Part shown: piece by piece, positions 4,587 to 15,088 of the stretch
Layout: the number at the start of each line of letters is the position of its first letter
Numbering within the stretch: position 1 is the stretch's first letter
Assembly (NCBI GenBank): GCA_902790635.1
Contig: CADASN010000002.1
Coordinates: 62,001-126,000, forward strand
DNA from: an uncultured Bacteroidia bacterium
Lineage (GTDB): Bacteria; Bacteroidota; Bacteroidia; Bacteroidales; UBA932
Direction: 5' to 3'
DNA: 64,000 nucleotides
Position numbers and translations under genes: made by a program
Notes under the pieces: model-generated
What the model was told of the DNA's origin: nothing
Database searches by the model: none
What the model saw: only the letters and a program-made list of their open reading frames with translations

Positions 4587-4715
4587 GAGAACTATAAGTT
4601 TGTAATTATAGTAAATATATGTGGCAACTTCCAAATCCTCTTTTTGGAAAAATCAAGGGACCAGGGTATGCGGTGAGTCGGATGACGCACACCCCGATCC
4701 CGTTGTTTAACCAAA
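4587..4715 (-). promoter_or_regulatory. Structured 5' leader shared with susC
   Basis: On the minus strand the leader opens with TTTGGTTAA (4715-4707), a 5-nt spacer, then GGGATCGGGGTG (4701-4690). The second block runs into a hairpin formed by GGTGTGCG and CGCATACC (8 pairs, one G-U). The ATG follows about 103 nt after the second block. The same two blocks, spacing and hairpin position occur upstream of susC. No known riboswitch class was recognised. Confidence 0.6.
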
Positions 4716-4720
4716 TCGTA

Positions 4721-4753
4721 CTACAAAAATACACGATACGGGGATTTTTGTAG
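4721..4753 (-). promoter_or_regulatory. -7 box inside a 10-bp dyad (candidate operator), UroD-like gene
   Basis: The minus strand reads TATTTTTG at 4731-4724, a perfect TAnnTTTG box, 8 nt before the conserved leader. The box overlaps one arm of a perfect inverted repeat, CTACAAAAAT (4721-4730) and ATTTTTGTAG (4744-4753), with a 13-nt spacer. A dyad over a -7 box would suit a repressor or activator; which protein binds is unknown. Confidence 0.5.
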
Positions 4754-4819
4754 GATTGTATTTTGTTCAGATTGGGTAGGTAAATCGTTTATCTCGGAAA
4801 ACGGTAATCCCTGAAATGT

Positions 4820-5794
4820 TCATTTCAATGAAAAGTCCAGGCTCCCGCGGAAAGGAACGTCCGCTTCGAGGCTTTGGCCCGGACCGCCGGCGGCTTCGCC
4901 GAGCAGCAGCACTTCTTCCGGACGCGCAGGGTCAAGCTCGACAAAATGCACACCGTCAATGCGCATCGTGCCTTGCCATAGATCCAGCAGGACGCTCCGC
5001 GCTGCCTTGGCACCACTGCCATCATAGGTCCAGAGACCGAAGGCCGGCTCCACCCGGGCATCCTGCGCACCTAGGCCGACGTAGCGCAGGCCCTTGAGTC
5101 CGCGTGGCCGGTAGGAGACGCCCCATGCGGAGATCCCGTCCGTTCCGGACTCGGGTGTGACGGCGTAGTTGACATGGATCCGCTCCGGCGCGATGGTGTA
5201 TTCCATCTCGAAGAACAGGCGCAGGCCATCGTCGAAGGTAAACAGGCTCTTGGAGTAATACTTCTCGGTGGAAGGGGTGCTGTGGTCCTCGGAGGCGACA
5301 AGGGCCTCTTCGGCCCGGTCGAAGTCCGGACCGGGCTGTCCATCCTGCCGGCCGGAAGCATAACGGACAAACGGCCGTACCGCGGAGAGGAGGGCCAGCG
5401 GGTCGAAGTACTCCGTCAGCGCGACGGGACGGTAGCGGTCCGGCGTCTCCAGCTCTATGCTGCGCCGGGTGATCTCGCTGCCGTCTGGCTGTAAATACTT
5501 CAGCAGGAGGTGGTTCTCATAGATGCCTTCCGCCGGGGCCAGGTGTAGCCTCAGCCTGCCGGGCCGGTCGGCCGGGATCGTCAGCCGGGTTTCCCCGGCA
5601 GTCACGGCCTGCCCGTCGGCATACTGCTCCCATTGGATGCGGACCTCCGGCGATTCGCCGAAGTCGTTGACAAGGGGAATGCTGACGCTGCGGGCGGCCT
5701 TGATCCGGTCTGCGGAGGGCGCATCCTGCGCGCAGGCGGAAAGGAGCAGGAGGGCACTGAACAGGGAAAGCGCGGTGATGAGATGGAATTTCAT
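4820..5794 (-). CDS. Exported beta-sandwich lipoprotein of unknown function
   Basis: A 324-residue lipoprotein: start at 5794, hydrophobic signal, lipobox LLSAC. The mature part is rich in beta-strand patterns, including DGLRLFFEMEYTI and WGVSYRPRGLKGLRYVGLG. The latter distantly recalls the C-terminal beta-sandwich of family 2 glycosidases (Bgal small-chain type), but I cannot assign a family. It lies 11 nt after the SGNH esterase gene, so the two are likely co-translated and may act on the same substrate. An open frame extends 109 residues further upstream, but that part is arginine/proline-rich shadow sequence overlapping the esterase gene. Confidence 0.7.
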   Translation of the reverse strand: MKFHLITALSLFSALLLLSACAQDAPSADRIKAARSVSIPLVNDFGESPEVRIQWEQYADGQAVTAGETRLTIPADRPGRLRLHLAPAEGIYENHLLLKYLQPDGSEITRRSIELETPDRYRPVALTEYFDPLALLSAVRPFVRYASGRQDGQPGPDFDRAEEALVASEDHSTPSTEKYYSKSLFTFDDGLRLFFEMEYTIAPERIHVNYAVTPESGTDGISAWGVSYRPRGLKGLRYVGLGAQDARVEPAFGLWTYDGSGAKAARSVLLDLWQGTMRIDGVHFVELDPARPEEVLLLGEAAGGPGQSLEADVPFRGSLDFSLK

Positions 5795-14700: not shown

Positions 14701-14945
14701 CAGGAGACCTCGAGGGTCGTTCCCGGGGCGACGCGGATCTCGAAGTTCCCGTCGACGTCGGTGATGACACCGTTGGTGGTGCCGGGCACGACGACGGATG
14801 CTCCGATGATCGGTTCACCCGCAGAGTCCAGAACCTTGCCCCGGGAGACCTGCTGCGCGAAAGCGGCAGTCCCCGAGAGGAGCAAAGCAACGCAGGCCGT
14901 GAGCGCCATCAGCGCCCGTCGGCCAGTTGAGAAAATAGATTTCAT
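11796..14945 (-). CDS. SusC/RagA-type TonB-dependent outer-membrane transporter
   Basis: A 1049-residue TonB-dependent transporter. After the signal peptide comes a CarboxypepD_reg-like domain ([17 protein letters not shown]; about residues 30-110). A TonB-box-like segment [16 protein letters not shown] leads into the plug, with [11 protein letters not shown] and [29 protein letters not shown]-type sequence. The beta-barrel follows and ends in an aromatic-terminated strand (VFGVNIGF). The start at 14945 ([10 protein letters not shown]) gives a proper signal peptide. It imports oligosaccharides together with SusD. Expression is expected to depend on the divergent hybrid regulator; the promoter, leader and repeats lie in the shared intergenic region. 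Confidence 0.97.
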   Translation of the reverse strand: [1049 protein letters not shown]

Positions 14946-15072
14946 CAAGCTTTGGTTTTGGGTTGAACAATAAGGATATATATAAGTGTCGTATATCTCT
15001 GGTTTCCGGGAAGGTATCAGGGGTGCACGGTTTATGGGACACATGCACCCCGATCCCTATCATTAACCAAAA
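14946..15072 (-). promoter_or_regulatory. Structured 5' leader of susC
   Basis: On the minus strand: TTTGGTTAA (15071-15063), 5-nt spacer, GGGATCGGGGTG (15057-15046), with the last bases forming a perfect 8-bp hairpin GGGGTGCA / TGCACCCC (15051-15044 with 15027-15020). The ATG lies 100 nt after the second block. It matches the leader at 4587-4715 in both blocks and in spacing. No known riboswitch or leader family was recognised. Confidence 0.6.
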
Positions 15073-15080
15073 TTCAAAAA

Positions 15081-15088
15081 CAAAGATA
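15081..15088 (-). promoter_or_regulatory. -7 box (TATCTTTG) of susC
   Basis: Perfect TAnnTTTG on the minus strand, 9 nt upstream of the conserved leader block. No good -33 TTG is present, as expected for an activator-dependent susC promoter. The direct repeats at 15120-15150 lie just upstream. Confidence 0.65.

Follow-up and report, generated by a model that had tools for sequence, protein, structure and literature searches.

A promoter unit shared by susC and a UroD-like lipoprotein gene carries a hairpin leader whose seed is complementary to susC start regions

The DNA stretch of 64,000 nt analysed here (the window; positions 62,001 to 126,000 of contig CADASN010000002.1 from an uncultured Bacteroidia bacterium) carries a polysaccharide utilization locus (PUL), with a gene for a hybrid two-component regulator (HTCS) on the plus strand and, divergent from it, susC, susD, lemA, a DUF2207 gene and a GDSL esterase gene. 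Past the esterase gene follow an open reading frame without a family match, a leader region, a UroD-like gene and a Mal s 1/DUF362 gene. A propeller sensor, a kinase, a receiver and an AraC-type helix-turn-helix domain adjoin susC/susD, as is the case in HTCS-regulated PULs. Two minus-strand leaders are the subject of this study, w1 before the UroD-like lipoprotein gene and w2 before susC (Table 1). We read the cassette to which they belong as a promoter of the HTCS regulon to which an RNA module has been added. The UroD-like gene and susC share one switch, made up of an operator, a promoter and, at the head of the message, a short RNA hairpin.

Table 1. Coordinates of the features discussed (window positions; the last row refers to loci of other genomes)
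Feature	Position	Strand	Basis
Operator, UroD promoter; degenerate direct repeat, -64 to -21 from TAnnTTTG box	4752..4795	-	leave-one-out position weight matrix (PWM)
Operator, susC promoter; TTGACCG direct repeat, 22-nt period	15109..15152	-	PWM and pair test
Promoter box TATTTTTG, UroD/DUF362 unit	4724..4731	-	sequence
Promoter box TATCTTTG, susC operon	15081..15088	-	sequence
Seed TTTGGTTA, leader w1	4708..4715	-	sequence; identical in 9/9 compared units
Seed TTTGGTTA, leader w2	15064..15071	-	sequence; inside R3 match 15020-15088
Leader hairpin w1; arms 4701-4686 and 4672-4657, 16 pairs, then U-rich 4656-4648	4657..4701	-	folding z -4.65
Leader hairpin w2; upper arms 15051-15042 and 15029-15020	15008..15057	-	folding z -2.68
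AACCAAA, complement of seed, before susC start codon	14951..14957	-	sequence
HTCS gene	15222..19094	+	Reg_prop, HisKA, HATPase_c, Response_reg, HTH_18; Y_Y_Y slightly under cut-off
susC	11796..14945	-	TIGR04056, 765 bits
susD	9612..11774	-	PF14322, PF07980
lemA	8904..9590	-	PF04011
DUF2207 protein gene	7204..8901	-	PF20990, PF09972
GDSL esterase gene	5806..7185	-	PF13472, PF21254
UroD-like lipoprotein gene	3552..4586	-	PF01208 slightly under cut-off (22.3 vs 23.9 bits)
Mal s 1-like/DUF362 protein gene	1333..3501	-	PF22701, PF04015
Free-standing RNA loci	L160 (about 1463-1575), L157, L148, L154, L155, L156, L163; also L122, L126

On the minus strand, TTTGGTTAA begins at 4715 in w1 and at 15071 in w2, GGGATCGGGGTG occupies 4701-4690 and 15057-15046, and the start codons lie at 4586 (UroD-like gene) and 14945 (susC). 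A prediction made from the letters of the window (the original prediction) had described both leaders with correct coordinates and letters, and had considered the conserved blocks unlikely to be due to chance. The counts agree with this. The pattern GGTTAA-N5-GGGATCGGGGTG (18 fixed bases) is present at exactly two places in the window, where with up to three mismatches 0.07 places are expected, and two copies occurred in none of 100 shuffles. There are also two places in the whole own genome (G000), which is 83% complete.

Relatives were sought with models and with patterns. Model R1, built from three leaders, matched in 3 of 200 genomes of the genus; R2 gave 9 places in 6 of 400 genomes at E <= 1e-4 and more at weaker E; R3 was run on 20 chosen genomes, and w2, which it matches, was among the sequences used to build it. 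R2 and R3 contributed L143 and L119 (before GH2 genes), L118 and L121, which stand ahead of orthologues of DUF362, and a tandem leader copy in L095. Upstream of susC orthologues a diverged leader was found in L095, L096 and L101 and no leader in L103, L104, L105, L107, and L112; L101 was found through orthology alone and matches no model, and the match of L119 is weak (20 bits). From the matches in relatives to the pattern with up to three mismatches 20 places were fetched, two of which (L033 and L034) show box, seed and hairpin, the other 18 being judged unrelated by eye. A stricter pattern yielded six stretches in a collection of 84,980 species, two from Bacteroidales relatives and four without an R3 match.

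In all, 12 operator-promoter-leader units, each with operator, seed and hairpin, were obtained from nine genomes of the genus (two each in G000, G015 and G298; one each in G008, G216, G036, G105, G244, and G264). They precede susC, lemA, UroD, DUF362, and GH2 genes. Two named relatives with a leader are metagenome-assembled genomes called "Bacteroidales bacterium", one of them from goat rumen. Copies before many susC or PUL genes had been expected; further copies do exist in relatives, but the own genome (83% complete) has just w1 and w2 and most of the sampled genomes of the genus have none. A widespread PUL element was therefore rejected. In L095 the entire unit stands in tandem before one susC (1037-1187 and 1281-1431); the loops of the two copies are identical and both stem arms differ. 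In L034 (G015, 1460-1720) the leader precedes lemA with no susC/susD in between, and is followed by a short stretch that opens with ATGATG and ends in a G/C-rich, T-rich run.

The leader is absent from all 26 UroD matches other than the window's own gene, up to 90% identity, and w1 therefore looks like a local capture; in one of these matches, L078, TTTGGTTA overlaps the box and no model matches. Such a capture would also be expected from shared ancestry alone, that is, a promoter copied from susC to the UroD-like gene together with a leader devoid of function. We consider this most improbable, as the spacer between operator and box is 5% identical between w1 and w2, yet seed and box are kept, and w1 folds far better than its shuffles.

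Upstream of both boxes and in the same register lies a 44-bp operator, which the original prediction had overlooked. With the units aligned on the promoter box, a conserved block TTGAc-GaTTTac...CC..caTTGAaCaAaTtACAGaCC is seen at -64 to -21. With a leave-one-out PWM, this register outscored every other offset tried in 10 of 10 units (w1 among them), and 2000 shuffles per unit yielded no score as high; w1 itself reached 28.7, its best other offset -0.2. A simpler test, which looks for TTGACCG in a pair, did not reach significance for w1 (p 0.21) or L119 (p 0.75) and gave a borderline result for L033, L118, and L121. Scanning all fetched loci we found 20 places with a score of at least 14, the maximum being 3.0 in one shuffled window. 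Twelve of these are the leader units, two lack a box and were taken as chance, and six combine operator and box without a leader: before susC in L103, L104, and L105, before UroD in L070 and L091, and in L075 pointing away from UroD. At DUF362/UroD orthologues the operator thus occurs with the leader (L118, L121) and without it (L070, L091). The operator is common to susC, UroD and DUF362 genes in several species, and its owner is probably the HTCS encoded divergently at 15222, which would bind it. The co-regulation of the UroD/DUF362 pair with the PUL, already suspected from the leaders, looks real, and the operator is the more direct evidence for it. HTCS-regulated susCD PULs have the same arrangement, with an HTCS divergent from susC, a susC-susD operon and a direct-repeat operator before a TAnnTTTG promoter. 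They differ in that here an RNA module is added between promoter and gene at 12 of the 18 operator-promoter sites (loci fetched via leader, susC or UroD, so that this is not a genome-wide rate) and in that the regulon takes in UroD and DUF362 genes.

Both leaders carry the TAnnTTTG box, whose letters we take to be those of the canonical sigma-ABfr promoter. Judging from the spacing to the box, transcription would start a few bases ahead of UUUGGUUA. The leader would then be the extreme 5' end of the mRNA, as originally predicted, and as the presumed start is just before UUUGGUUA the mRNA would open with a short unpaired run, directly behind which stands a strong G/C hairpin. The hairpins had been described as having 8 bp each. 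They are present but larger, w1 having 16 contiguous pairs and w2 about 10-12 in the upper stem. By folding energy all 12 modules are more stable than their shuffled versions (z -2.49 to -4.65, with no more than 4 of 200 shuffles as good), and four leaderless controls gave z +1.49 to -1.06; the structure proposed for the window's leaders thus stands. The hairpin keeps its position while its letters vary among the units. In a 10-unit alignment (A9), 98.6% of the 70 cells of a 7-pair stem are paired and 11 stem cells are changed on both sides, values that 0 of 500 shuffles reached in either case. The arms vary in concert, as had been expected of covarying stems in relatives; it must be held against both counts that the arms were registered by hand on complementarity, so that they lean towards structure, and for this reason the folding energy serves as the independent check. 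A constant distance to the ATG is not general: from the hairpin end it is 51-75 nt in eight leaders and 32-36 nt in L118 and L121. In L145 (G105), on the minus strand, another TATCTTTG box follows the leader hairpin, ahead of the DUF362 start codon at 4081.

The seed is near-invariant across the units. Its mean pairwise identity is 100% in 9 of 9 units of fixed register, where the box reaches 88%, the operator 58%, the gap between box and seed 56%, the ten bases that follow 41%, the spacer between operator and box 32% and the region far upstream 26%. L096 has TATGGTTA in this place. Two explanations of this conservation do without base pairing. First, the strong hairpin near the predicted 5' end, found in 12 of 12 units, could solely protect the mRNA from decay, the seed being start-site context. 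This is improbable, because it leaves unexplained both the invariance of TTTGGTTA and the fact that TTTGGTT is the exact complement of the commonest 7-mer of susC starts (see below). Moreover, the pattern TTTG-N4-13-TTTGGTTA is present at eight places in the own genome, which are the two units and six places apparently coding or antisense to gene starts (five of the six were inspected). Second, seed and inverted repeat could extend the HTCS operator as binding or initiation DNA rather than act as RNA. The fixed spacing of operator and box and the 8-9 nt from box to seed in nine units would suit this second explanation; we nevertheless hold it to be very improbable, since six of the 18 operator-promoter sites have no leader, the inverted repeat varies in letters yet stays paired, and the seed lies 10 and 23 nt further from the box in L101 and L119.

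AACCAAA, to which TTTGGTT is exactly reverse-complementary, is more frequent than any other 7-mer in the 50 nt ahead of 26 susC start codons and is found at 14 of them; shuffled start regions gave a mean of 1.2 and a maximum of 6 in 300 rounds. Its copy at the window's susC start had escaped the original prediction. The 26 starts were set from protein alignments, 19 from 20 orthologue places (one had no start) and seven from 24 rows, these seven being picked by hand for a SusC-type N-terminus; many of the 26 regions are related by ancestry. The 7-mer is found in 10 of the 21 of these regions without a leader, in five of eight in the own genome, and in 2 of 199 other gene starts (2 of 89 A+T-rich ones). 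The automatic gene finder that supplied the 199-gene set saw it in 4 of 11 recognised susC genes, probably owing to wrong starts. In the 14 susC starts that lack the frequent AAAGCTTG tail, the two leading 6-mers are TTAACC (9) and TAACCA (8), again complementary to TTTGGTTAA. In isolated modules the seed is predicted to be mostly unpaired (0.64-0.98 in 11 of 11). The complementarity argues for base pairing rather than for a stabiliser or a ribosome-standby element, two roles offered earlier.

Base pairing with susC mRNAs has precedents. In the FopS small RNAs (sRNAs) of B. thetaiotaomicron, a canonical sigma-ABfr promoter is followed by a single-stranded seed at the 5' end and a terminator hairpin, and FopS blocks susC translation by pairing near the start codon (PMC11697453); GibS of the same species is a related precedent (PMC7366714). 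From these descriptions the leaders resemble FopS and GibS in having a housekeeping-type Bacteroidota promoter, a single-stranded 5' seed with a hairpin behind it, and susC translation-initiation regions as target, here by complementarity (14 of 26 against 2 of 199; energies moderate). The sizes are similar too (about 65-70 nt for FopS, 62-74 nt here). Of the single-stranded stretch followed by a terminator, the unpaired seed is seen in 11 of 11 modules, the hairpin in 12 of 12 and the U tract in 6 of 12, so that the hairpin is not always terminator-like, unlike that of FopS. Further differences are that the module here would form the start of PUL mRNAs controlled from an operator of HTCS type, and that FopS has 12-15 copies per genome against two in the own genome (83% complete). 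Because the copy number deviates and RbpB's family was not detected in the incomplete own genome (see below), the leader is not assignable to FopS; the likeness is one of layout and of kind of target. The class of sRNAs derived from 5' untranslated regions (defined in PMC10994844) would be similar in that such a leader shares the start site of the mRNA and ends before the coding sequence, here judged from sequence alone. The roc mRNA leader of B. thetaiotaomicron, which controls a gut-colonisation gene in response to sugars (PMC10294740), is likened here by its described role as an mRNA leader.

The most economical mechanism would be pairing of the seed with susC starts in cis and possibly in trans. 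The two leaders would be copies of the promoter unit of one HTCS regulon, with the HTCS binding the direct repeat 21-64 bp before the TAnnTTTG box. UUUGGUU of the message would pair with AACCAAA, typical of susC start regions, and in susC leaders the 5' end would fold back on its own start region and damp translation; the message may thus carry its own sRNA-like brake. Should the hairpin terminate transcription or be cleaved, the leader, some 62-74 nt long, would come free as an sRNA and damp susC mRNAs that compete with it. We tentatively prefer this reading, in which a FopS/GibS-like anti-susC module of seed and hairpin has been placed in the 5' end of HTCS-regulon mRNAs, acting in cis and perhaps in trans, and put its chance at somewhat less than even. 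Pairing in the cell, the start sites, the release of the leader and the direction of regulation are here deduced from the letters.

Several results weigh against this preference. In the stem alignment, 3 pairs with a double change and 8 further pair types were reached by 197 and 61 of 500 shuffles, respectively, and are not significant. A terminator-like U tract (7 of 9 bases) after the C run is present in only 6 of 12 modules, w2 not among them, and a simple terminator scan (loops up to 8) gave none at either window leader. Duplex energies separate the eight own susC starts from 56 others only moderately (areas under the curve 0.68 and 0.83), with 24 and 22 controls at or under -7 kcal/mol, and duplex shuffle tests on four start regions were weak (p 0.05-0.74). 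The start region of the leader's own gene lacks AACCAAA in w1, L034, L101, L118, and L121, and L096 and L101 change one pairing side alone. RRM_1 (PF00076) is the family of RbpB, the protein that binds FopS; a search for it gave nothing in the 83%-complete own genome and a match in the control Bacteroides ihuae. An Rfam scan gave no FopS match, the presence of FopS in that copy of Rfam being unconfirmed.

Autoregulation purely in cis would do without release: the 5' end folds on its own start region and the hairpin holds it there. Among ten full leaders, pairing of the seed with its own start is predicted at 0.60-0.96 in w2 (0.61), L033, L095b, L096, and L143, at 0.32-0.56 in three more, and hardly at all in w1 and L101. 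We rate this explanation as unlikely, though as the most serious of the alternatives. The seed is fully kept before UroD/DUF362 genes without AACCAAA (w1, L118, L121) and also in L095a, situated 244 bp before L095b and provided with an operator and promoter of its own. As w1, L034, L101, L118 and L121 have no AACCAAA at their own gene, pairing in cis is not general. That the seed exists for long-range pairing alone was rejected for the absence of AACCAAA before UroD/DUF362 genes and for the one-sided changes in L096 and L101.

A conserved intergenic RNA related to the leaders was found by model matches in nine genomes (G008, G015, G105, G120, G216, G239, G264, G290, and G298). It consists of a motif of the TTGGCACGGTGCTTGC type, which we take to be a sigma-54 promoter, then a region that contains TTGGTTAATAATTTTGGTTAGAATTG, and lastly a G/C hairpin accompanied by a U run; it holds two TTGGTTA seeds and an intrinsic terminator. 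The alignment covered seven loci; the promoter motif of two loci, L122 and L126, deviates in its second half. TTTGGTTAGAATTG is common to this free-standing RNA and the L095 leaders. The own genome yielded no copy of the RNA, and with up to three mismatches it occurs in only 2 of 101 genomes sampled by kinship. Four of its loci were scanned against Rfam and had no match. The gene downstream, presumably aldolase-like, seems to have its own promoter.

A wider role in trans can be pictured for this genus, in which some transcripts of an HTCS-induced PUL stop, or are cleaved, behind the hairpin and the released leader turns down the porins encoded by other, competing PULs; in some species the two-seed sRNA with the sigma-54-type promoter would add a second input. 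This extended version is doubtful. If true, induction of one sugar system would silence others without a separate sRNA gene. Gut Bacteroidota have dozens of PULs to rank, and in the literature searched base-pairing control of susC is described for Bacteroides only. Our prediction is that outside Bacteroides the anti-susC seed is written into PUL mRNAs and into an RNA with a sigma-54-type promoter, and the exact bases to change on both pairing sides can be named (TTTGGTT and AACCAAA). It would also place an exported UroD-like lipoprotein and a DUF362 protein, two puzzling genes, in an HTCS sugar regulon.

Other candidates were discarded. An R1 match, L057, was not counted, having no promoter box and lying between pectinase-like and sigma-factor-like genes (named by eye). 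Thirteen R2 matches up to E 1 and ten further R3 matches were inspected, and L120, L123-L125, L127-L130, L149, L159, and L164, which resemble ordinary terminators or chance, were left out. Viral contigs (two patterns) and plasmids contained no relative. A known riboswitch or other Rfam element was rejected, with no match above the gathering score in the window and sub-threshold matches of both leaders to unrelated families alone; a superficial likeness to the core of the cobalamin riboswitch was not borne out.

The UroD-like lipoprotein, whose match to MtaA/CmuA is weak and far under the cut-off, is encoded next to the Mal s 1/DUF362 fusion gene in the sugar regulon (window 1333-4586). Related PULs also contain DUF362 orthologues (L145, L147). 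Elsewhere in the window, a 15-bp unit is perfectly repeated 2.1 times at 53960-53991.

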